A stretch of 64,000 nucleotides of DNA, taken from assembly GCF_026914265.1 (NCBI RefSeq), contig NC_069135.1, forward strand, positions 39,079,946 through 39,143,945, given 5' to 3'. A program made the position numbers and the translations under genes. The first letter of the stretch is position 1. Each line of letters starts with the position of its first letter. The stretch comes from Mya arenaria. Lineage: Eukaryota > Mollusca > Bivalvia > Myida > Myidae. The notes beneath the pieces are model-generated. The model saw only the letters and a program-made list of their open reading frames with translations, did not search any database and was not told the DNA's origin. Positions 1,160 to 55,741 of the stretch are shown here, one piece after another.

Positions 1160-4100
1160 TCAGGTCAAATGCATTGCTGTCGAAGTATTTTCTTCCTTGT
1201 CCTCAAGTCTAGAACTAACATTTGGAATGGCCTTGAGTATTTCACTTTTTACATCAGCAAACGATGTTCTAACGTCCGTTTTGCCTTTGTTTCCATCAAT
1301 GATCTGAAAATATGCATACATATAATAAGTGATGTGATAAAAAGACCCTTGAGTCTGTTCACTGACGAGTTATAATCAGCGTTGTTGTTTGATTATGCCA
1401 GAATGTTTGCAAGGCAATGAGTGTCAATGTAAACATTGTACACCATAATACATTTGCAGTTTAAAGTTTTAACTGGCAAACCTAGAGTTAAAACTTTTTA
1501 CACCAATAGACGCAGCAGAGAAACAGAAACCAGCAATTAACTTAAATCAACTACAACAAGAGATGTTATTCAAACATTATGCCCCCCCCCCCCGAGCGCC
1601 ATGTTGTCAGGATTATATGGACAATTGAATGAAATATGCATGCACCGAAATGACAGCTGATTTGTCGCTAACATTGTATGCCGTTGAGGCAGTTTTAAGA
1701 TTATGACCATTCAAAGTTGGAGGATAGAGTGTGTTATGACCATGACCTTTGACTCTATGACCTCAAAATCCATAGTAGTCATCAGCTGGTCACCAAAAAT
1801 CTAAATGTTAAGTTTGAGGGCCATGGGTGCAGGCATTGACAAGTTATCACACAGACAAGCATTTTTCGTTCAAGGTCACTGTAACCTTGACCTTTGATAC
1901 AATGACCCCTTAAATCAATAGGGGTCATCTACTGGTCAGGCCCAACCTCCAAGTCAAGTTTGAGGGCCATGGGTGCAGCCATTGTCAAGTTATCACACAG
2001 ACAAGTTTTTTTCGTTCAAGGACACTGTGACCTTCACCTTTGACCCAATGACCCCTTAAATCATAAGGGGTCATCTACAAGTCAGATGCAACTCCAAGTC
2101 AAGTTTGAAGGCCATGGGTTCAGGCACTGTTGAGTTATCGCTCGGACAACCTTTTACCATTCAAGATCACTATGACCTTGACCTTTGGCTCTATGAATCC
2201 TAAAATCAATAAGGGTGATCTACTGGTCAGGCTTAACATCCATGTCAAGTTTAATGATCATAGGTTCAGGCATTGTTGAGATATCAGTGGGAGAATATTT
2301 GTTAACCTTTTAGCGTTAAAGGTTACTGTGACATTGACCTTGGTCTGATGACCCCTAAAGTCGATAGGGATCATCTACTGGGCAGGCCTAACCTTCATGT
2401 CAAGTTTGATGACCATAGGTCTAGGAATTGTCGAGTTCGCTTTCAAGGTCACTATGACTTTGACCTTTAACCCCTAAAATCAATAGGGGTCATCTACTGG
2501 TCAGGCCCAACATCCATGTCAAGTTTGAGGGCCATGGGTGCAGGCATTGTTGAGTTATCACTCGGACAACCTTTTATCATTCAAGGTCACTGTGACGTTG
2601 ACCTTTGGCCCAATGACCTCTAAATCTAGGGACCATCTTCTGGCCAGGACCAACCTCCAAGTCAAGTTTGAGGGCCATGGGTGCAGGCATTGTCGAGTTA
2701 TCACTCGGATAACCTTTTACCATTCCAGATCACTGTGACCTTGACCTTTAGCCCAATGACCCCTAAAATCAATAGGGACCATCTTCTGGCCAGGCCCAAC
2801 CGCCAAGTCAAGTTTGAGGGCCATGGGTGCAGGCATTGTGGAGTTATCACTCGGACAACCTTTTACCATTCCAGGTCACTGTGACCTTGACCTTTGGCCA
2901 GATGACCTCCAAAAACCATAGGGGTCATCTCCTGGTCAGGCCAATTCTCCAAGTCAAGTTTGAGGGCCATGGGTGCAGGCATTGTCGAGTTATCACTCGG
3001 ACAACTTTTTACCATTTAAGGTGACTGTGACCTTGACCTTTGGCCAGATTACCCCCGAAAACAAAAGGGGTCATGTACTGGTCAGGCCCAATTCCAAGTC
3101 AAGTTTGAGGGCCATGGGTGCAGGCATTGTCAAGTTATCACACGGAAAACCTTTAACCATTCAAGGTGACTGTGACCTTGACCTTTGGCCCGATGACCCT
3201 CAAAAACAATAGGGGTCTTCTACTGGTCAGGCCCAACCTCCAATTCAATTATGAGGGCCATGGGTGCAGGCATTGTCAAATTATCACTCGGACAACCTTT
3301 TACCAATCAAGGTCACTGTGACCTTGACCTTTGGCCCGATGACCCCCAAAAACAATAGGGGTCATCTACTGGTCAAGCCCAACCTCCAATTCAATTATGA
3401 GGGCCATGGGTGCCGGCATTGTTGAGTTATCACTCGGACAACCTTTTACCATTCAAGGTCACTGTGAACTTGACCTTTGACCCGATGAGCCCCCAAAACA
3501 ATAGGGGTCAGCTACTGGTCAGGCCCAACCTCCAAGTCAAGTTTGAGGGCCATGGGTGCAGGCATTGTGGAGTTATCACTCGGACGACCTTTTACCATTC
3601 AAGGTCACTGTGACCTTGACCTTTGGCCTGATGACCCCCAAAAACAATAGGGTTCATCTACTGGTCAGGCCCAACTTCCAATTCAATTATGAGGGCCATG
3701 GGTGCCGGCATTGTTGAGTTATCACTCGGACAACCTTTTACCATTCAAGGTCACTGTGAACTTGACCTTTGACCCGATGAGCCCTAAAAACAATAGGGGT
3801 CAGCTACTGGTAAGGCCCAACATCCAAGTCAAGTTTGAGGGCCATGGGTGCAGGCATTGTCAAGTTATCACTCGGACGACCTTTTATCATTCAAGGTCAC
3901 TGTGACCTTGACCTTTGGCCTGATGACCCCCCAAAACAATAGGGGTCATCTACTGGTCAGGCCCAACCTCCATGTCAAGTTTGAGGGCCATGGGTGCAGG
4001 CATTGTTGAGTTATCACTCGGACAAGCTTTAAAATTATTTTACCATTAAAGGTCACTGTGACCTTGACCTTTGACCCAATGACCCCCAAAATCAATAGGG

Positions 4101-7100
4101 GTCATCTACTGGTCAGGCCCAACCTTCATGTGAAGTTTAATGACAATACGTCCGGGAATCGTTAAGTTATCACTCGGACAAGCTTTGGTCTACCGACGGA
4201 CCGACCGACCGACCGAAGGGGGGCATAAAAATTAAATACACAGTTTTACCAAAGAAACTTCAATTCTTTAAGATATTAGAAATGTTATTGCACCAGTGAA
4301 AACTTATATTGAAACTCCAATTTTACTCATAGACACTAGATCAGAAATAGTGCACTTTTATACCATATATAATATTGCCAAACGTACAACTAAACACCTT
4401 AATGACTTCCTCAAAAGGTTTTGAAGAGAGAACAAAGTACAAAATTTATAAACACCATACATTTAACAAAACTTTGTCCAGCAAAACAGTCAAACAAACA
4501 CTTACCAAGACTGGAGGTGTTATCAGTTTTCTGTCAGATTTTTTAACTAACCACCGCTCATGTAACTCATGTAACTGGTTCAGGTAATCCTGCGATAAAA
4601 ATGGATTTCCTCTCAAAAGATACATTTCAAACAACAAATGGGCGATATAGTTATGCAGGAAATATGATGTTAGTCTTTTGATCTTTTTGGGCTGTATCAC
4701 TTACAGCTGTTTGAGTCCAGTATCATGCTATTATCTTTATACAAGCATTCAGAAGCGTTGAGCTCCCACAGATTAAATGACTAGCATAGTATTGCTTTAA
4801 TTTCATACGCAAATTCCAATATAAATTACTTTTAGCTATCAATAATCCCATTTTCTTTATAATAGCATCTAAATTATCATTTGCGTAGAACTGCAGAAGT
4901 ATATTTTCAGATATTGAATCAGATATTCAGTTAACACTATGCGTTGTATGGATATTGTGTCTGTCCTGTCGCAATATTTGTTTGAGACAGAAACTTAAAA
5001 TAATTTAAGCAAATGTTTATACCAAGTCATTGTAGTTCTCTTAAGTGCACTAAATTCACTTCATGGTATTCAATTCTGGCTAACATAGTTGTTTTATCAA
5101 GAAATGAAATTAAAATGCATTCCATTTGTTCTAAAACAATCAATTGGCACAGCCATACCGTTTAACTGTGTACTGCACTCAAATACAAAAATGAATTGAT
5201 CAATGCAACATTTTTTTTTTAATTTTATACATTTTCAAGTATTTAAAGTATTTGTATTTATATAGTAGATAAATCTTCTAATGTTACCAAGGTAATGTTT
5301 CTTTCCTCTGGTCGATTTCTAGTCTGTATTCTCTCAAAACAGGTTTGAGGGGATGTTTGAAGATATACTGAAAAAACAAATACCAATATAACAACATTTC
5401 TTCAGCCTTTCAAGTGACTCCAATACTTTTGGACGTTTGTAAAATTATAATCACTGTTTAATAAGAATTTCATATATCTATAAATACTAGCCACTAAATC
5501 ATTGGCATAAATACTGCCAACATTAAACAATATCTTCGTACCTAAGTATATATTCTTACCTATAAGACCCACACTGACTCTGCCCTAATACTGCCAATAT
5601 TTAACAATATGTATATATTCCTACCTATAAGACCCACACTGACTCTGCCCTAATACTGCCCATATTAAACAATATTTTTTTATGTATATATGCTTACCTA
5701 TAAGATCCCCACTAACTCTTCACTAATACTGCCAATATTAAACAATATGTATATATTCTTACCTATAAGTTCCACACTAACTCTGCCCTAATACTGCCAA
5801 TATTAAACAATATGTATACCTTCTTACCTATAAGCCCCACACTGACTCTGCCCTAATACTGCCAATATTAAACAATATGTATATATTCTTACCTATAAGA
5901 TCCACACTGACTCTGCCCTAATACTGCCAATATTAAACAATATGTATACCTTCTTACCTATAAGATCCACACTGACTCTGCCCTAATACTGCCAATATTG
6001 AACAGTATGTTTATATTCCTACCTATAAGATCCACACTAACTCTGCCCTAATACTGCCAATATTGAACAATATGTATACCTTCTTACCTATAAGATCCAC
6101 ACTGACTCTGCCCTAATACTGCCAATATTGAACAGTATGTATATATTCCTACCTATAAGATCCACACTAACTCTGCCCTAATACTGCCAATATTAAACAA
6201 TATGAATATATTCTTACCTATAAGATCCACACTGACTCTGCCCTAATACTACCAATATTAAACAATATGAATATATTCTTACCTATAAGATCCACACTGA
6301 CTCTGCCCTAATACTGCCAATATTAAACAATATGTATATATTCTTACCTATAAGATCCACACTGACTCTGCCCTAATACTGCCAATATTAAACAATATGT
6401 ATATATTCTTACCTATAAGATCCACACTGACTCTGCCCTAATACTGCCAATATTGAACAGTATGTATATATTCCTACCTATAAGATCCACACTAACTCTG
6501 CCCTAATACTGCCAATATATTCTTACCTATGAGATCCATACTGACTCTGCCCTAATACTACCAATATTAAACAACATGAATATATTCTTACCTATAAGAT
6601 CCACACTGACTCTGCCCTAATACTGCCAATATTAAACAAGAGATGTTAGTGAAACATTTATGCCCCCTTGGGAGCCAAATTGTTAGTAGGATTTGGACAC
6701 TTAAATAAAATATGGACAATCAGAAAACCTTTTTTCAGCTTACAGTCACACTGACCTTGACCTTTGACCCACTGACCTCAAAATCAATAGGGTTCATCTG
6801 CTGGTCATGACCAATAAGCCTACCTAGTATGAGGTCCCTGGGTCAAAGCGTTCTCAAGTTATTGATCGGAAACCGTTTTTCATGTTAAGGTCACACTGAC
6901 CTTGACCTTTGACCCACTGACCTCAAAATCAATAGGGTTCATCTGCTGGTCATGACCAATACACCTACCAAGTATGAGGTTCCTGGGTCAAAGCGTTCTC
7001 AAGTTATTGATCGGAAACCGTTTTTCATGTAAAGGTCACACTGACCTTGACCTTTGACCCACTGACCTCAAAATCAATAGGGTTCATCTGCTGGTGATGA

Positions 7101-10100
7101 CCAATACACATACCAAGTATGAGGTCCCTCGGTCAAAGCGTTCTCAAGTTATTGATCGGAAACCATTTGGTATTCCGACCGACCGACAGACAGACAGACC
7201 GACCGACCGACCGACATGTGCAAAACAATATACCCCACTTTTTTCAAAAGGGGGCATAACAATATGTATATATTCTAACCTATAAGATCCACACTTACTC
7301 TGCCCTAATACTAACAATATTAAACAATATGTATATATTCTTACCTATGAGATCCACACTAACTCTGCCCTAATACTACCAATATTAAACAATATGTATA
7401 TATTCTTACCTATAAGATCCACACTAACTCTGCCCTAATACTGCCAATATTAAACAATATGTATATATTCTTACCTATAAGATCCACACTCTCTCTGCCC
7501 TAATACTGCCAATATTAAACAATATGAATATATTCTTACCTATAAGATCCACACTCTCTCTGCCCTAATACTGCCAATATTAAACAATATGTATATATTC
7601 TTACCTATAAGATCCACACTGACTCTGCCCTAATACTGCCAATATTGAACAATATGTATATATTCTTACCTATGAGATCCACACTCTCTCTGCCCTAATA
7701 CTGCCAATATTAAACAGTATGAATATATTTTTACCTATAAGACCCACACTGACTCTGCCCTAATACTGCCAATATTAAACAATATGTATATATTCCTACC
7801 TATAAGACCCACACTGACTCTGCCCTAATACTGCCCATATTAAATAATATTTTTTTATGTATATATGCTTACCTATAAGATCCCCACTAACTCTGCCCTA
7901 ATACTGCCAATATTAAACAATATTTATATCTTCCTACCTATAAGATCCACACTGACTCTGCCCTAATACTGCCAATATTAAACAATATTTATATATTCTA
8001 ACCTATAAGGCCCACACTGACTCTGCCCTAATACTGCCAATATTAAACAATATTTATATATTCTTACCTATAAGATCCACACTGACTCTGCCCTAATACT
8101 ACCAATATTAAACAGTATGTATATATTCCTACCTATAAGATCCACACTAACTCTGCCCTAATACTGCCAATATTAAACAATATGTATATATTCTTACCTA
8201 TAAGATCCACACTAACTCTGCCCTAATACTGCCAATATTAAACAATATGTATATATTCTTACCTATAAGATCCACACTAACTTTGCCCTAATACTGCCAA
8301 TATTAAACAATATGCATATATTCTTACCTATAAGATCCGCACTAACTTTGCCCTAATACTGCCAATATTAAACAATATGTATATATTCTTACCTATAAGA
8401 TCCACACTAACTCTGCCCTAATACTGCCAATATTAAACAATATGTATATATTCTTACCTATAAGATCCACACTAACTCTGCCCTAATACTGCCAATATTA
8501 AACAATATGTATATATTCTTACCTATAAGATCCACACTAACTCTGCCCTAATACTGCCAATATTAAACAATATGTATATCTTCTTACCTATAAGATCCAC
8601 ACTAACTCTGCCCTAATGCTGCCAATATTAAACAATATGTATACATACTTACCTATAAGATCCACACTGACTCTGCCCTAATGCTGCCAATATTAAACAA
8701 TATGTATATATTCTTACTTATAAGATCCACACTAACTCTGCCCTAATACTGCCCATATTAAACAATATGTATATATTCTTACCTATAAGCCCCACACTGA
8801 CTCTGCCCCAATACTGCCAATATTAAACAATATGTATATATTCTTACCTATAAGATCCACACTGACTCTGCCCTAATACTGCCAATATTAAACAATATGT
8901 ATATATTCTTACCTATAAGATCCACACTGACTCTGCCCTAATACTGCCAATATTAAACAATATGTATATATTCTTACCTATAAGATCCACACTGACTCTG
9001 CCCTAATACTGCCAATATTAAACAATATGAATATATTCTTAACTATAAGATCCACACTGACTCTGCCCTAATACTGCCAATATTAAACAATGTGTATATA
9101 TGCTTACCTATAAGATCCACACTGACTCTGCCCTAATACTGCCAATATTAAACAATATGTATATATTCTTACCTATAAGATCCACACTGACTCTGCCCTG
9201 TTTCAACAGAAAGTCAAACCACCCTGTCAGCACATTGTATTCGACATCTGCCAAAAGTCCACTGAAACGGAGACAAAGAGTACATGTATAATGTATTAGA
9301 ACCATTTACAGTAACGTTGTCATTTTCATCATTTCCAGTTTAGTTTATGTTTCTTTCGTCTGTATAGTCCAGCTTTTAGTTCCAAACAAAACATATATTT
9401 GTTTCTGGTTAAGGCCTGAAAAATATGGGTCCGTAGGTAGATTTTTTGGGAGCTTTTTTTCCTGAATACATTATAAAAAGCTAACACAAAACTGTCATAA
9501 CTTTATGTTTAATGTACTTTTGTCATTAATTTGAGGTACTTGTAAAATCAGGCATCAACATTAATATTAAGCTTAAAGTGACACTCTTATTCAAAATTAA
9601 TACATACACATGTGTACCAAACATATATTTTGAGTAATAAACATTTATCTACTTTCTAAATAGTGCATTTATGGAAAATATTAATTGCTGATAGCAAGAT
9701 TGAAACTGTGTATTTAATAGCTGAAAATGCAAAAATATTAAATGATTGGTGAGTGCTTAAAGATTCACTGTTATCTACTATTGTCTCATAAGGTAGAAAT
9801 ACTGTATTTTCTGCACCATTCTTTCAAATTAAACTCGGTATCCTTTATAAGCATCATTATTTCCTCGTTTAGTCATCCTTTTTGGTATTTAAAAACAATT
9901 GTATTGATTGTGGAAAATCTTATTCGGGAGTAAGAGTGCATCTTTAATGGAGCTATCCGAGAGCGAGCTTATTTGTGGGTAGGTTTCCTTAATAAAGGGT
10001 GAATCTACAAAATAGTAAGTGCTTAGAATGTTCACTATATTCTCTGAAACCACTGAGTTCACAAGGGTGCCTGAATTCTGAGTATTGTAAGTACTTTCAG

Positions 10101-13100
10101 TGTCATATTTAGGTCATCTGACAAATAAATGTTCAATTCGTAAGGAAAGCTTGACTAGAAAGATTTTTATGTATTCAATAAAAGTTCCACATCTTAAGTT
10201 AGCAAAAAATGTACGTTGGAAAAGTGAATATAACCAAACCAAATATTTGTGGTATAATGTAAGACATATAATACAGAGTTATATATTACCTGTTCTTAAG
10301 GTTTTCAATGAAACAATACGTGGCACTGTACAGGGACCGTTCCATCACTCTCAATGGCTTTGTCTGAAAAACAAACATATGTTAAAGGCATGCTATGGTT
10401 TTAAAGCCGTGTTATGGTTGAATAGCCATGTTGAAGAAATGTTATGGTGTTAAACGTTTAAGACATGTTATTGTTTTAAAGACAAGTTAACATGATTTAA
10501 AAGCCATAAAGGTACAGTTCAAACTCGCTATGTCGACGTCGGATATCTCGACTTTCCGGTTGTGTCGACTTTTTTCTCCGGTCTCTAATTTATTCCTTTT
10601 TATTCTATATAAAATAAATCTGTTTGTGTCGATACATATATTTCGATTTTTTCGCTATGTCAACCTCATATTTCAGTCCATGTGGTCGAATTTCACACAT
10701 TTTCCTTGTTTTTTATGTCGAACTGTAGATCGAGTTGTAGGTGCGAAAATAGTTAGGACGGTTTGCGGATCATGCTAGATTACCGTGCTTGTCAAAATAA
10801 CAAACTGTCATAATTGGAGGTTTATTGGTAAATGTGAATAATTAAAGTGTTTTTTTTAGTTTTTGATTAAAGAGCCATTTATTGCTCAAGCTATTCATTG
10901 AACCGCACAAGGACGCTGATGACATCAGCGGAAAATTCAACAACATTGAAATTTACGTGACAAAGAAATTTCTCTATACTGCATGAACAAATCAAACAGT
11001 CATAACAAATGCACTATTTTAAGTTGCTGTCATATGTGCTATACTGTTTTCTTACAAAGTACTATTTAAGTTGCTGTCATATGTGCTATACTGTTTTCAT
11101 ACAAAGTACAAGTGTATGTAACTGTGGTTTTATATCTGTTTTGTGTAATCCATAAACGTGATTTAAATAAATTTGACACAAAAAAATCATTTTTTTCGCT
11201 TTATTTTTCAATAATGCGTTTGCTGTTTTCACGACGGTAACAAGACCAATCAATTGCAGAAGTCAGATGGCGGAGATAAATCACTCTCAAATGTGTTGGG
11301 ATTGGTGATATTTTTGTAATTAGTTTGTGTCAAATGTTCGTTATCTCGTCTTTTTTCCCTAGGTCCCGACAAATTTGACATAACGAGTTTCGACTGTATG
11401 TTCTGTTTTAAAAACATGTTATGGGTTAAAAGCCATAGTAAATCGTTAAATAGCCATGTGAAGAACATGATTTGGTTTTAAAGCAACATTATAGGCATGC
11501 TATGTTTCTATAGCCATGTTTAAGACATGCCATGGTTTTATAACAATGTTAAAGTCATGCCATGGTTTTAAAGCCATGTTAAAGACATGTTATAGTTTTA
11601 AAGCCACATTATAGACATGCTATGTTTGTAAAAGTCATGTTTATGACATGCCATGGTTTTATAGCCATGTTAATGTCATGCCATGGTTTTATAGCCATGT
11701 TAAAGTCATGCCATGGTTTTAAAGCCATGTTAAAGACATGTTATAGTTTTATAGCCACATTATAGACATGCTATGTTTGTAAAAGTCATGTTAAAGTCAT
11801 GCCATGGTTTTATAGCCATGCTAAAGTCATGTTATGGTTTTACAGCCATGTTAAAGTCATGGTAAGGTATTATAGCCATGTTAAAGACATGTTACTGCTT
11901 TATAGCCACTAAATAGGAATGCTATGTATTTGTAGGCATGTTCAAGACATGTTATAGTTTTATAGCCATGTTATTGTCGTGTTATGGGCCATAATATGGC
12001 TAATACTCATGTTGAAGTCATGATATGGCTTTATAGCCATCTTATTGACATGCCATTTTTTTATATAGCAATGTTACCATCGTTTTATAGCCATATAAAA
12101 GTAATGTTTTGGTTAAATTACAATGTTATAGTTATGCTACGGGTCAATAGTAATGTCATTTCGCTTGCGGGCTCTGACATATTACAACCACTGCTTAAGA
12201 GTACAAAAAAAAAAAGAATGTACCTGCGGATGATCATGTTTCTTTAGCAAAGTGAGTGTAACGAGGGACTGGAATGTGAACGACCATCTTTTTGGATCTG
12301 AATACAGGTGAGCCTGAAATATAGATGCAAAATGAAAATTTACTGAACAAAATGTTTAAAAAGTATTTATTCAAATCCATGTTTCTTTGAAAAGATGTGT
12401 GTAAAAGTGTACACAACAATAATCTTATACATATTTAATCTATTTACATTTTAAAATGACTTACTTGGTAAAACAAGCAAATCTTTAAAACAAGCAAATC
12501 ACGCTGCATCCTTGATTTCGACTTGAACAAGAATAGCATGTACGTTGAAATTAGTTTTCTAACACAGGGGATGAAAAGACCGCCGAAGTTTACTTGTTTT
12601 TTCTTAGAGTTATGAACCTTATTTTGGCCAAGAAACACACTTAGCATAACTAAACATTACTAAACATTAGACACATCCACTTAATTGCATGGGATTTATT
12701 TATTGCTTTGTGAAATCACAAAGGACACTTTTCTTATGAGATACATTGTATATTAACTCTTTTATTTTGATGAAAAAGATTAATAACAGCATATTTGTTT
12801 TAAACAAGAGATGTTTGTCAAACATTACGACACCCCCACCCCCTCAGCGCCATGTTGTCAGGTTTATTTGGACAATTGAAAGAAATATGCATGGACCTCC
12901 AAGTCAGGTTTTAGGGCCATGGGTGCAGGCAGTGTCAAGTTATCACACAGACAAGCATTTTGTGTTCAAGTTCACTGTGACCTTTGACCAAAAAAACAAA
13001 AATCAACAGGGGTCATCTACTGGTCATGCCCAACCTTCATGTCAAGTTTGATGACCATAGGTCCAGGAATTGTCTTGTTTGGCTTTTAGCATTCAAGGTC

Positions 13101-49800: not shown

Positions 49801-52800
49801 CCAATTTATCGAAACTTCGTAAGTTTAACAGGCTTACCGTAAGTAGTTTATTTGAATAAGCTAAAATGCATACTTAAATTGAATTTTGATAAATAAAAAT
49901 GGTTTATTGTGATTACCATAAAGATAGTTCCTATCTAAAGTATAAAAACTCTTAAAGAAGTAAATATTATGCAAATTATTTAAAAGCAAAAGTAGAGAGC
50001 TTAGCTTAATCCTGTTATAAGTTTCGAGAAATCAGGGCCTGGAGTATTTAAAAAAAAAGTGTTATTTTGTCACCTCAGTCACTCCAGAGTTATGACCCTT
50101 GAATTGCCCAAAATTGGCTTAACATGTACAACCACTTATCACAAAACTTGATGTTCAAAAATTAGGATGGGCAAATTCTGTGACAATTGGCACTCTTGTA
50201 TTTCCTGTGCTCATTATTTATTCCTTTTTCAGTTCAATTCAAACAAAAATGTTATTTTTAAACGAAAAACATGACACTTAAGTTAAGAGTTAGATGAAAT
50301 AAGTTTGAAACGGTCTTTGACGTGAGGGCTTTTAAGATTTTATTCAAAACTTGCTTTCAGGTTTTGTGTTAGCGAGGCCACACGTAATGAACTGCGATAC
50401 AGACGATGTTCAGATGAGCTTCTATCATGTACACGGGTCCAGTAATAGAAATGTAAAGATGTTCTCAAGAAAACCGTATGAAGCAAACCAGAGGATGGCA
50501 TTTCTGAAGAGAAAACGATTCATTGTAAAAGTACAGACTCCATTAGGTACAGTATTTCAAGTCTAGAATGTGAAGAAAACAATTAAAGCATATGTGAACA
50601 TTTATATAATTTAAGTATTTCTCTCTTGACTTTTTCGAAGAATAAGGAAGGCTATATTACTTGCCCGCCATCTGCATCTGTTGAAAAAAAATTGGCACAT
50701 TCAGATTTTTACTTAGATCTCGAAAACAACGCAATTTATTGCATTGTCCACTGTTAAAATGTCAGTGGTTTTTGGCAAAATAAAGTATTGTCCCTTCAGG
50801 CTGAGGCAAATACTGCTGACCAAGGACAATTAACTCGGCCAATATGAATAACAATTCAACTAAATAATAATTATTATGTATGTTATACGTATGGTATGAC
50901 ATTTTGGTTAAAAACATTCTGATAACTTACCTTAAATTTATATTGAAGCTTATTTATCCCTTATTCATTCATGGTGTCTGCTTTTCTAGACTTCACTTTG
51001 CTGATTTTGACATGTAGCCTTTGAGTGACATTGCCCATACTTTAAAGCACTGTACAGTCTAAAGAAGCATGTCTTTTCATCCTGATTTCGTAAATTGTTC
51101 ACCTTTCCTCGGCCATCTTGTCGGCTTTCAAAAGATAATTATCATAAAATCTACCAACAGATTAAACACAACTATAATATCAAACTGTACAAAATGGTTG
51201 AAGTATTTAGTAGGCTTTTAATTCCAAATATGATTTAAACACAATTTTCAAACGTAACACATAAGACAAAAAGGCTGCCTTTAAAAAAATAATTTCCAGC
51301 ATATTTCTCAAATAAGGGCGATTTTCAAAAGCCAATGAAAATTGACTATTTAACTAATTCTGTCTTTGGCAAGTTTTTTTAGCCAGTCAAAAAGATGGAA
51401 ATGAATATTGGCCGACTTTGGTCGATATTGTGCGAGTTTTGGCATATATTGTTGTTAATTGTCTTGTATTAGTACTGTGATTGTCCTTGTATCAAATATG
51501 TTATAGTTTATTAATAACATTGAATAAAGTTAATCGCTAAGGAGTTTGGCAACATCTTTTATAGCATTGTCCACAATTTAATGGTCAGTGGAGTTTGACA
51601 ATATACTGTAATTAAGCATTGTCCACAGTTTAATGGTCAGTGGAGTTTGTCAACATCAATTATAGCTTTGTCCACAGTTTAATGGCCAGTGGAGTTTGAC
51701 AACATACTGTAATTAAACATTGTCCACAGTTAAATGGCCAGTGGTGTTTGGCAACATACTGTAATATAGCATTGTCCACAGGTAAATGGTCAGTGGAGTT
51801 TAACCACATACAGTAATTAAGCATTGTCCACAGTTAAATGGCCAGTGGTGTTAAGCAACATAATATAGATTTGTCCAAATACTAATGGCCAGTGGTGTCA
51901 GTTACCCCATAAAATTATATTTTGTCTGTATGTTCAGGAACTGCTCATAGAGATATGATGGTCTACAATGTGGATCGCTCATGTGAAGGCTTCATCCATG
52001 GCACTGAAAAAGGTAAACATGTCTGATGTTATGTTCATTAAAGTGACTTGCTCGTGGCCACAAATAAGTTTTCCATAAAATGCATCTGAAAACACTTATT
52101 TTATCATTATTATGCCCCCCTTCGAAGAAGAGGTGTATATTGCTTTGCACAGGCATGTCGGTATGTCGGTCGGTCGGTCCGTCGGTAGACCAAAGCTTGT
52201 CCGAGTGATAACTCAACAATTCCTAGACGTATGGTCATCAAACTTCACATGAAGGTTGGGCCTGACCAGTAGATGACCCCTATTGATTTTGGGGGTCATC
52301 GGGTCAAAGGTTAAGGTCACAGTGACCTTTAATGGTAAAATAATTTTAAAGCTTGTCCGAGTGATAACTCAACAATGCCTGCACCCATGGCCCTCAAACT
52401 TGACATGGAGGTTGGGCCTGACCAGGAGATGACCCCTATTGTTTTTGGGGGTCATCAGACCAAAGGTCAAGGTCACAGTGACCTTGAATGGTAAAAGATT
52501 GTCCGAGTGATAACGTGACAATGCCTGCACCCATGGCCCTCAAACTTGACTTGGAGGTTGGGCCTGACCAGTAGATGACCCCTATTGTTTTTGGGGGTCA
52601 TTGGGCCAAAGGTCAAGGTCACAGTGACCTTGAATGGTAAAAGGTTGTCCAATTGATAACTTAAAAATGCCTGCACCCATGGCCCTCAAACTTGACTTGG
52701 AGAATTGGCCTGACCAGGAGATGACCCCTATGGTTTTTGGGGGTCATCTGGCCAAAGGTCAAGGTCACAGTGACCTGGAATGGTAAAAGGTTGTCCGAGT

Positions 52801-55741
52801 GATAACTCGACAATGCCTGCACCCATGGCCCTCAAACTTGACTTTGAGATTGGGCCTGGCCAGAAGATGGTCCCTATTGATTTAAGGGGTCATTGGGCCA
52901 AAGGTCAAGGTCACAGTGACCTGGAATGGTAAAAGGTTATCCGAGTGATAACTTGACAATGGCTGCACCCATGGCCCTCAAACTTGATTTGGTGGTTGAG
53001 CCCGGCCAGAAGATTGTCCCTATTAATTTTAGGGTTCATTGGGCCAAAGGTCAAGGTCACTGTGACCTTGAATGATAAAAGGTTATCCAAGTGATAACTC
53101 AACAATGCCTGCACCCATGGCCCTCAAACTTGACATGGATGTTGGGCCTGACCAGTAGATGACCCCTATTGATTTTAGGGGTCAAAGGTCAAGGTCACAG
53201 TGACCTTGAAAGCAAACTCGACAATTCTTGGACCTATGGTCATCAAACTTGACATGAAGGTTGGGCCTGCCCAGTAGATGACCCCAATTGACTTTGGGGG
53301 TTATCAGGCCAAGGTCAATGTCACAGTAACCTTTAACGCAAAAGAGTTAACAAATCTTCCCCCACTGATATCTCAACAATGCCTGAACCTATGATCATTA
53401 AACTTGACATGGATGTTAAGCCTGACCAGTAGATCACCCTTATTGATTTAGGATTCATAGAGCCAAAGGTCAAGGTCACAGTGATCTTGAATGGTAAAAG
53501 GTTGTCCGAGTGATGACTCAACAATGCCTGAACCCATGGCCTTCAAACTTAACTTGGAGTTGCATCTGACTATCTACCCTTATGATTTAAGTGGTCATCG
53601 GGTCAAAGGTCAAGGTCACAGTGACCTTGAACGTAAAAAAAAATTGTCTTGTGATAACTTGACAATGCCTGCACCCATGGCCCTCAAACTTGATATTTAG
53701 GTTTCTGGTGACCAGCTGATGACTCTGGATTTTGAGTTCATAGAGTCAAAGGTCATGATGGTCATAACACACTTTATCCTCACACTTTAATGGTCATATT
53801 CTTAAAACAGCAACAAATCAGCTGTCATTTCGGTCCATGCATATTTCATTCAATTGTCCATATAATCCTGACAACATGGCGCTCAGGGGGGGGGGCATAA
53901 TGTTTGACAAACATCTCTTGTTTTACTATATGATATCACAATTGCAGAAAAAAATACAGTTTTAGCTTAAAAAAGTAGGGGTCGAACCCATGCTGGTAAA
54001 GTCAAGAAAAAAGTAGAAAACAGCTGGCTGGTCAAAACGGCCAGGATGACTTTAACAAAAGTACTGGATATGTTGACCTGTTAAGGATCACATGATAATG
54101 ACAACCAATTATGCAATTCCACAGCTGTAATTAGTTTTCGAAAATTGTGGGCTTCAAAGAAGATATTTAAACAAATATCAACATCTGCTGAAGAGTTCCA
54201 GCTTTTGGTATTTTTGTTTTAACACTCCTTATGATTTGCCACACTTTATTTCGTAATTAAATGATTTTCAATTCGGCCAATGATGCAACCTAAAACCTAT
54301 GTTGACCTCTACAGCAAAAGTCTTGTTCAAGTTACTCTTCAACAAAAGGCTTGCTCATGTTGACATCTGTAGCAAACAGTCTTGTTCAAGTAACTTTTTA
54401 ACAAAAAGCTTTGCTCATGTTGACCTCTGTACCAAAAAGTCTTGTTCAAGTTACTCTTTAACAAAAGGCTTGCTCATGTTGACATCTGTAGCAAAAGTCT
54501 TGTTTATGTTACTCTTTAACAAAAGGCTTGCTCATGTTAGTTTCTATAGCAAAAGTCTTGTTCAAGTTACTCTTCAACGAAAGGCTTGCTCATGTTGACA
54601 TCTGTAGCAAACAGTCTTGTTCAAGTAACTTTTTAACAAAAAGCTTTGCTCATGTTGACCTCTGTACCAAAAAGTCTTGTTCAAGTTACTCTTTAACAAG
54701 AGTCTTGCTCATGTTGACATCTGTAGCAAAAGTCTTGTTTATGTTACTCCTTAACAAAAGGCTTTGCTCATGTTAGCCTCTATAGCAAAAGTCTTGTTTA
54801 TGTTACTCTTTAACAAAAGGCTTGCTCATGTTAGTTTCTGTAGCAAAAGTCTTGTTCAAGTTACTCTTTAACAAAAGGCTTGCTCATGTTGACCTCTGTA
54901 CCAAAAAGTCATGTTCATGTTACTCTTTAACAAAAGGCTTTGCTCATGTTAGCCTCTATAGCAAAAGTCTTGTTCATGTTACTCTTGAACAAAAGGCTTG
55001 CTCAAGTTAGCCTCTGTAGCACAAGTCTTGTTCATGTTACTCTTTAACAAAAGGCTTGCTCATGTTAGCCTCTGAAATAAAAGTCTTACATGTTCATGTT
55101 ACTCTTTAACAAAAGGCTTGCTCATGTTGACCTCTGTAGCAAAAGACTTGTTCATGTTACTCTTTAACAAAAGGCTTGCTTATGTTAGCCTCTGTACCAA
55201 AAGTCTTGTTCATGTTACTCTTTAACAAAAGGCTTGCTCATGTTGACCTCTGTACCAAAGGTCATGTTCATGTTACTCTTTAACAAAAGGCTTTGCTCAT
55301 GTTGACCTCTGTACCAAAAGTCTTGTTCATGTTACTCTTTAACACAAGGCTTGCTCATGTTGACCTCTGTACCAAAAGTCTTGTTCATGTTACTCTTTAA
55401 CAAAAGGCTTGCTCATGTTGACCTCTGTACCAAAAGTCTTGTTCATGTTACTCTTTAACAAAAGGCTTGCTCATGTTGACCTCTGTAGCAAAAGTCTTGT
55501 TCATGTTACTCTTTAACAAAAGGCTTGTTCATGTTAGCCTCCATAGCAAAAAGAGAACAGATGATCATTTTTATCCACATCTGAAACTCTCTGTTTTACA
55601 GGTTATCCAAAACTGCAGAGTAGAATTAAGAAGGAAGGCATGATGGGTATTAAGGCTTTCTTCTGGGCGGAGATTTGTGATGACCAGAGCGGGGAATTCA
55701 AAGTGTTCCATGGGAAAACAGCCCCTTTTCAGAACTGGTGA
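43873..55741 (+). CDS. ankyrin repeat and MYND zinc-finger protein, 9 exons
   Basis: Exons 43873-44019, 44361-44447, 45809-45896, 46492-46611, 48572-48721, 49642-49773, 50361-50546, 51938-52012 and 55602-55741 join in phase (mostly phase 1) to 374 aa. Residues 1-50 are a helical lead. Ankyrin repeats span about 60-190: AGMTSLHCAVAFS, KYGAKVNVKDDLGFTPLFLA, KADVNSRNKTGGTALHGAA, and KHGADPRREDEDGTTPFEL. A complete MYND finger is at 201-240 (C201, C204, C214, C217, C223, C227, H236, C240). The ~130-aa C-terminal part (ARPHVMNCDTDDVQMSF, YHVHGSSNRNVKMFSRKPYE, WAEICDD and on) is not a domain I know. MYND fingers bind proline-rich peptides, so an adaptor role is inferred. A TTTTTCAG acceptor 9 bases before the ATG suggests a 5' UTR intron. 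Intron 8 is 3.6 kb of repeats. Confidence 0.9.
44098..44260. repeat. ~29-bp minisatellite in ankyrin-MYND intron 1
   Basis: About five units of TTGACTTGTAGCAGACATAA plus TGCCCCC, diverged. They start about 80 bp after the exon 1 donor. Confidence 0.75.
45122..45738. mobile_element. probable hAT-like non-autonomous element
   Basis: The left side GGTAGTGATGGGCAATCGGC and the right side (reverse complement) TGGTGATGGGCCGATG form inverted ends. ATCGATTA motifs are repeated inside both ends. The interior has no transposase frame. It lies in ankyrin-MYND intron 2. The superfamily is inferred from the TAGTGATGGGC-type end only. Confidence 0.5.
46201..46314 (+). pseudogene. dead copy 1 of ankyrin exon 4
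   Basis: GTCGCTATGTGGACAGATTG, later GCACATCTTATGCTGGAAGA, then ATACATGGGGCAGCTCTGG. This follows the real exon 4 (46492-46611) along its length with small deletions. Even the acceptor is kept (TCAACCTTAG against CTCACCCATAG). Frameshifts and a lost donor make it unusable. Confidence 0.85.
46353..46460 (+). pseudogene. dead copy 2 of ankyrin exon 4
   Basis: GCCGCTATGTGGACAGATTA, then AGCACATTTTATGCAAGAAG, and TTACATGGGGGAGCTCTGAA match exon 4 with a ~20-bp internal deletion and a destroyed acceptor (CCTAAAT in place of CCATAG). It lies between copy 1 and the live exon at about 140-150-bp spacing. Confidence 0.85.
46492..46611 (+). CDS. ankyrin exon 4 (live copy)
   Basis: It encodes RYADKEIATHLIQEGKADVN, then SRNKTGGTALHGAALMGNK: one complete ankyrin helix-turn-helix unit, phase 1 at both ends. 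A symmetrical exon of this type can be duplicated without breaking the frame, which fits the two dead copies upstream. Confidence 0.9.
47025..48410. repeat. CCAAGTTCCCCTTT minisatellite, split by an insertion
   Basis: Pyrimidine-rich 15-17-bp units (AAGTTCCCCTTTCAACC, AAATTCCCCTTTTATCC) at 47025-47345, and longer, more diverged CTCTCAACCAAGTCTGCC units at 48149-48410. A TIR element sits between them. It lies in ankyrin-MYND intron 4. Confidence 0.85.
47346..48148. mobile_element. 803-bp TIR element with 5-bp CCAAG duplication
   Basis: The left end is CAGGGTTCGAATTTAACTTT. The right end, reverse complemented, is CAGGGTTCGAATTTAGACTC. CCAAG is directly repeated at 47341-47345 and 48149-48153. 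CTCGCAAAATTTTGCGAG and CTCGCATTATGCGAG hairpins are present near both ends. No transposase frame. The superfamily is not certain. Confidence 0.8.
48780..49620. other. ankyrin-MYND intron 5, possible degraded SINE head
   Basis: Near 49370-49415 the sequence CCAGAGGTCCCGGGATCAAA looks like a worn tRNA B box with a weak A box before it. The rest is AT-rich with nothing further. Confidence 0.3.
49642..49773 (+). CDS. MYND zinc-finger exon of the ankyrin-MYND gene
   Basis: It encodes CLQCGKHGENMKRCSQCQQA, then LYCDRNCQIKHWHTQHKQQC. All eight zinc ligands of the MYND fold are present. The exon is flanked by TTTTCAG and GTTAGT, phase 1 at both ends, so the finger is a symmetrical exon module. Confidence 0.92.
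51536..51900. repeat. ~51-bp tandem repeat before exon 8
   Basis: About seven units of GGAGTTTGACAACATACTGT, AATTAAGCATTGTCCACAG and TTTAATGGTCAGT. The array ends about 40 bp before the exon 8 acceptor, so it lies directly against the branch-point region. Confidence 0.85.
52110..53919 (-). mobile_element. bivalve tandem-core element, copy 4 (long, reversed)
   Basis: Read on the minus strand: AAGAGATGTTTGTCAAACAT, a G/C-run, about 11 core units of ~146 bp, then a GACC run and GAAGGGGGGCATAAT. It has the same ends as the copies at 1558, 6638 and 12806. Eight core units carry a perfect AGGTCAnnnTGACCT palindrome. It lies in ankyrin-MYND intron 8. Confidence 0.78.
54296..55548. repeat. 58-bp satellite in ankyrin-MYND intron 8
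   Basis: About 21 units of TTGACCTCTGTACCAAAAGT, CTTGTTCATGTTACTCTTTA, ACAAAAGGCTTGCTCATG, with small length changes. Copies near 54300-54720 form a higher-order duplication of about 235 bp. Frames of 62-99 codons through it are shadows. It stops about 55 bp before exon 9. Confidence 0.9.

Follow-up and report, generated by a model that had tools for sequence, protein, structure and literature searches.

Locus and host gene

The window analysed here is a stretch of 64,000 nucleotides from the clam Mya arenaria (contig NC_069135.1, positions 39,079,946 to 39,143,945), located on a contig of 64,373,224 bases, hereafter C14; the genome searches covered 1.216 Gb in 18 contigs. On its minus strand, the window carries a deoxynucleoside kinase-like gene, one intron of which is almost filled with a tandem array of 65-bp units, each repeating the end of the preceding exon together with its splice donor.

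Seven coding exons were placed, in a gene model without the first and last exons of the gene: four upstream exons (13951-13874, 13408-13355, 12313-12224 and 10363-10290), the exon whose 3' end seeds the array (9261-9173), the next exon (5367-5288, VYLQTSPQ...) and a downstream exon (4589-4506). The resulting 183-residue join is 100% identical over all 183 residues to an annotated M. arenaria protein named 'deoxynucleoside kinase-like' and contains the Pfam domain dNK (PF01712, E 3.8e-52). Its best PDB matches are deoxynucleoside kinases, with the alignment spanning the array-bearing exon border. An earlier, sequence-only reading had called the gene TK2 and the exon its exon 7. The exon is the fifth of the seven placed, and as the thymidine kinase 2-like name belongs to a different M. 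arenaria protein (P0022, 52% identical), what had been called TK2 is a dNK-like relative. The annotated proteins P0002 and P0003 join the exon ending at 9173 directly to the next one (VSVDLI to VYLQ), i.e., they correspond to the normal splicing of this border; P0003, which lacks a different exon, may represent the locus a second time as an alternative model. The earlier statement that the gene must splice across the array, which nearly fills the intron 9172-5368, is supported.

Structure of the tandem array

Tandem Repeats Finder placed an array with a period of 65 at 5546-9199, which bears out the proposed satellite of an exon end and its 5' splice site. The unit consists of 25 exon bases and 40 intron bases, repeated head to tail on the minus strand. 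Fuzzy matching gave 50 matches, and the exclusion of three lying inside an inserted element left 47 units including the real border, hence 46 decoys, close to the some 45 copies estimated before. The array begins exactly at the 3' end of the exon, which reads TTATAG|GTAAG at its border. The first unit (9197-9133) comprises the last 25 nt of the exon (9197-9173), the authentic donor and 40 nt of the intron, in support of the claim that this border seeded the satellite, and the decoys of about 65 bp follow with one interruption at 9132-5510. In the span given earlier, 5510-9261, the lower end was right, but the array proper stops at 9197 and 9261 is the start of the exon. The array and its insertion (9172-5510) take up about 96% of the 3,805-nt intron, leaving about 140 nt before the next exon; by arithmetic, the intron without the array would measure about 190 nt.

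Unit spacing is 65 apart from single cases of 64, 73, 74 and 49 and one insertion. The units align to the exon end and its donor as had been claimed: GT is retained in 46 of the 47 (the unit at 9067 reads TT), AG|GTAAG is present in 35/47, and the 25-nt exon piece is exact in 18/47. The TTAG described in front of the exon piece was found at 43 of the 47 unit ends. At the distal edge (5559-5510) the last unit passes into single-copy intron as GGCAGTATT|TATGCC, internal units continue from the same sequence into AGGGCAGAG, and the exon has AAACAGGGCAGAG. These edge sequences indicate duplication and amplification of a single segment that starts within the exon and ends after 40 nt of intron.

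Adjacent units are more similar than random pairs (0.057 vs. 0.065, p 0.0005), and 28 unit pairs are identical. Rare variants recur jointly in distant blocks (units 20-22 and 44-46), which is what slippage or unequal exchange would be expected to produce. The exon-attached unit equals the array consensus; it is identical over 65 aligned columns to units F03, F04, F24, F33, F34 and F41 and, jointly with these six, lies closest on average to the remaining units (mean distance 0.037). In the genome search the unit gave at least 10 matches, at two places on one chromosome, and so does not behave as dispersed satellite DNA.

The interruption, at 6640-7257, is an element of unassigned strand that carries three 145-bp GACCTTGACCTTTGACC repeats and, close to either end, inverted TATGCCCCC/GGGGGCATA motifs. 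AACAA flanks it on both sides (6635-6639 and 7258-7262), and its borders were drawn from these flanks. Similar 146-bp arrays are present in the window at 1737-4186 and 52192-53693, as is a fragment at about 13170-12804 akin to the GACCTTGACCTTTGACC repeats of the element.

Pseudogene copies

A second 65-bp array, with 31 units including the exon copy, lies 1.02 Mb away on C14 in a locus (L023) that matches exons 5-7 of the placed numbering. The exon after the array exon has an in-frame stop, and no upstream exons were found for this copy; it is taken for a pseudogene. The distal array edge is homologous between the intact gene and L023, therefore the array arose before the gene was copied. Within the two arrays together, 60 of 78 units have every nearest neighbour in their own array.

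In L023 it is the exon-attached unit that lies farthest from the others on average, though narrowly (mean distance 0.190; a unit near the other edge follows with 0.189). The donor of this unit is broken and GT is missing from the three units after it as well; across the whole array, 26/31 units retain GT. Edges diverge in L023; in the intact gene the distal edge diverges and the exon edge does not. A first unit conserved in the intact gene and diverged in the pseudogene is what selection on the coding end and the authentic donor, with the decoys free, would predict.

Other pseudogene copies on C14 (L029/L025 and L027) carry a 51-bp donor array that derives from the end of the next exon but one, which in the window (4589-4506) has a single donor. 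The arrays have 71 matched units in L029/L025 (GTAAG in 36) and 28 units in L027 (GTAAG in 21); the fetched stretches of these copies yielded neither the array-seeding exon nor the 65-bp array. L023, L025/L029 and L027 (C14: 37.95-38.07 Mb) are three paralogous dNK fragments in which the exon following the array exon has a common in-frame TAA, and on account of this stop they probably descend from one dead copy. Among the three, the 65-bp array was found in one and the 51-bp donor array in the other two.

Donor arrays at other exons

The genome search with spaced triples of AGGTAAG gave 9,897 matches compared with 3,379 for the reversed control. Among the matches of a stricter triple, CAGGTAAGT, at least 17 arrays were listed, and three were chosen since their units looked coding. 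All three begin at an exon end, with protein homology reaching within one residue of the donor. The first is an LPCAT3/MBOAT-like exon (PDB E 3.4e-15, Pfam MBOAT 4.5e-8) with 37 units and GT in 37. The second, a cathepsin-L-like exon (PDB E 1.3e-4, no Pfam match), has at least 15 units with GT in 13, and its array extends past the fetched stretch. The third is a MED17-like exon (PDB E 1.7e-7, no Pfam match) with 24 units and GT in 24. In each of these genes, read-through of the true donor runs into a stop codon ahead of decoy 1. Donor arrays at exon ends therefore recur in this genome.

From the other 14 listed arrays two were left out, their unit being the same as another's, and the remaining 12 were retrieved with no selection. 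The first unit was open and exon-like in three of these (L064, L070 and L073, without a Pfam match), the edges were not reached in three (L067, L074 and L075), and six were negative or unclear. In the reversed-pattern control, 17 arrays were listed, all on C1: 12 were fetched, four were left out for sharing the unit of another, and one (C1:50680455) was left out as its end was absent from the listing. None of the 12 fetched control arrays had an exon-like first unit, with three edges not reached, including that of L080, which lies in a nearly open frame. First units were judged by eye, not blind. The unit of the control array that was set aside (C1:50680455-50681401, ..TTACCAGGTACGTACAATGAATGG) resembles a donor-bearing exon end as well, and for arrays L041 and L043, whose units are donor-like, a position at an exon could not be demonstrated.

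The exon part of the unit measures 27-31 nt in the five protein-confirmed cases (L061, L062, L063, L025 and the window), in units of 41-65 bp, as read by eye from alignments with 0-2 mismatches; the 'shared' figures of the script over-extend. The regularity is post hoc and fails if the unconfirmed L064, L070 and L073 are counted (about 19, 23 and 36 nt, by eye).

Comparison with known systems

Tandem duplications of exon-intron borders have been described in amphioxus as mirages (PMC3087553, PMC3902484). Both papers state that regular splicing is undisturbed by them; PMC3087553 counts 6 units in one haplotype of the globin gene BflGb6 and 3 in another, and offers a model of intron gain. A similar case has been described in PGBD5. 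The clam array agrees with these accounts in having exonic and intronic sequence across the splice junction within tandem units, the authentic border as the copy at the array end, and concerted evolution, with neighbouring units more alike than chance and with diverging edges except at the exon edge of the intact gene. It differs in its host, a bivalve, in its 47 units, and in being accompanied by a pseudogene copy as a natural control and by several genes of one genome; the clam cases tested are of the donor side, whereas amphioxus is described as having both.

A minisatellite at a splice donor is also known from a human gene. The 6-16/IFI6 minisatellite was reportedly found by Turri, Cuin and Porter in 1995 to give multiple splice donor sites.

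Like the clam array, IFI6 has a donor site that is tandemly repeated where exon meets intron, and according to PMC4526556 two downstream repeat units serve as donors. In the clam the units are known from sequence and are 65 bp long with 25 exonic bases. Intron gain by tandem AGGT duplication (PMC4974935) resembles the clam case in a duplicated segment that contains an AG|GT border. However, the acceptor at 5368-5369 lies outside the repeat, therefore the duplication can have supplied at most one of the intron's two splice sites. Papers on human internal tandem repeats (PMC2812944) and earthworm metallothionein introns (PMC12783039) offered, in the parts available, no closer match. The literature search, which covered bivalve papers by their listed entries and had most subscription journals outside its coverage, found no bivalve report of donor arrays. 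We assign the clam array to the known mirage/IFI6 kind, to which it contributes its scale, a control in the form of a dead gene copy, and recurrence in several genes of a single genome.

Splicing potential of the decoys

Donors were scored by pairing with the U1 sequence. By this measure the decoys are strong donors: 44 of 46 pair at least as well as the weakest of the seven placed donors of the gene, and 34 of the 46 match or surpass the donor of the exon itself. Reading through the true donor adds 21 codons and then meets the in-frame stop TAG at 9110-9108, just before decoy donor 1, so the decoys are unable to replace the real donor. Inclusion of the 25-nt piece shifts the reading frame, as had been pointed out. 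As acceptors, the AGs of the units look weak (pyrimidine share 0.36-0.57, longest run 2-4, compared with 0.50-0.86 and 4-8 in the seven real acceptors, ranges that touch). Neither the exon piece nor AG|GTAAG is less diverse than the remainder of the unit, whether in the intact gene (permutation p 0.61 and 0.60) or in L023 (p 0.57 and 0.25). At this level the decoys show no sign of selection, and a splicing role of the array is unproven. With diversity unreduced, a stop before decoy 1, and P0002 and P0003 joining normally, the decoys are most likely silent.

RNA structure was considered as a means of hiding the decoys. Compared with ordinary shuffles, the 348 nt from the exon end fold at z -5.5. 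Shuffled units set in tandem reach a similar stability, however (10/60 at least as stable, z -1.19), and so we read the signal as an effect of repetition; four other arrays gave z -1.6 to +1.7 against the tandem control. DNA hairpins as a seed of the array were likewise rejected, as eight single units gave z -0.38 to 1.33.

Origin and consequences of the array

We consider it probable that the array is a splice-donor minisatellite of the mirage type, with the exon copy kept by selection and the decoys drifting and ignored. A 65-bp stretch that takes in the final 25 bases of the exon, the donor and 40 bases of the intron would have been tandemly duplicated before the gene was copied to the pseudogene 1 Mb away. 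The duplicate would then have been multiplied by slippage or unequal exchange, a mechanism to which the observed structure, edges and neighbour likeness point, turning an intron of about 190 nt into one of 3.8 kb. Purifying selection on the coding end and the authentic donor would keep the exon-attached copy intact and let the decoys drift, as the contrast with the pseudogene suggests. Splicing would use the exon-attached donor, in line with the annotated proteins; the decoys may be ignored because they lie downstream, have no good acceptors and lead to a stop if used. The same process would have been repeated at other exon ends of the genome.

Several points weigh against this reading. The silence of the decoys is read from sequence and annotated proteins, and P0002 and P0003 may be predictions not based on reads of this border. 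As the decoys are strong by U1 pairing, their silence needs an explanation beyond sequence, and recent homogenisation could mask constraint on them. Furthermore, the stricter triple gave 273 matches against 393 for its reversed control. As the matches cluster in few arrays, we claim no genome-wide excess of donor-bearing arrays.

As the main alternative, the decoy donors might be used part of the time, the stop-bearing transcripts being destroyed or truncated, so that the array would put a length-dependent brake on the enzyme. The strength of 44 of the 46 decoys would suit such a brake, as would the stop that decoy use meets here and in the LPCAT3-, CTSL- and MED17-like genes, and the human 6-16/IFI6 minisatellite (PMC4526556) offers a precedent. 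We nevertheless regard part-time use as unlikely, given that the annotated proteins show normal exon joining, decoy donor positions are no more conserved than the rest of the unit, the amphioxus papers state that mirages leave splicing undisturbed, and a stop within 40-65 nt is common by chance.

It is very unlikely that the array is maintained by selection because the decoys aid splicing through donor redundancy, recursive splicing or U1 recruitment. The many intact donors (GT in 46/47) would fit this idea, but the pseudogene array likewise retains GT in 26/31 units and the donor columns show no excess conservation. Redundancy, which the sequence-only reading had suggested, cannot rescue the protein, since read-through to decoy 1 meets the stop at 9110-9108. 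TATAG|GTAAG does have the AG|GT form of a recursive site, and the sequence before TATAG|GT has a pyrimidine share of 0.50 and a longest run of 4, at the low end of the seven real acceptors. By sequence the acceptors within the unit look weak, though their ranges touch those of real acceptors, and this lends no support to the micro-exons and recursive splicing proposed earlier. Least probable of all is an assembly artefact or wrongly expanded repeat: arrays of near-identical units are hard to assemble, but these units are distinguishable by identifiable variants, the array contains an insertion with matching AACAA flanks, a more diverged copy is present 1 Mb away, and unrelated loci share the design.

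In one transcript, the real donor and dozens of copies have nearly the same sequence, and the spliceosome must therefore choose by position or exon context. The clam loci are natural test cases for the choice between near-identical splice signals, readable from RNA, with a dead copy of the same gene as a control and unrelated genes as replicates. Donor arrays also show one way in which introns lengthen and, as repeats adjoining coding sequence, could by gene conversion write changes into the exon. A broader generalisation can be put forward only as a long shot: donor-seeded satellites would form a recurrent class in which a process at the border leaves a near-constant exon footprint of 27-31 nt (five cases, two in one gene family), introns grow from their own 5' splice sites, and a position rule always picks the exon-attached donor.

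Other tandem arrays

A search for arrays whose units contain TTTTTGCAG returned 117 matches, compared with 26 for the reversed control; these arrays are possibly acceptor-seeded and include C1:3918117-3920117 and C10:29225489-29227002. At C1:14055179 (L045), a 53-bp array of about 29 copies has a unit that resembles part of a tRNA gene (GGTTCGATTCCCGGCC). Within the window, a 30-bp/151-bp tandem array at 11450-11973 lies inside the intron between exons 12313-12224 and 10363-10290 and has, as far as seen, no relation to an exon end. A 58-bp tandem array of about 21 copies is located at 54299-55551.

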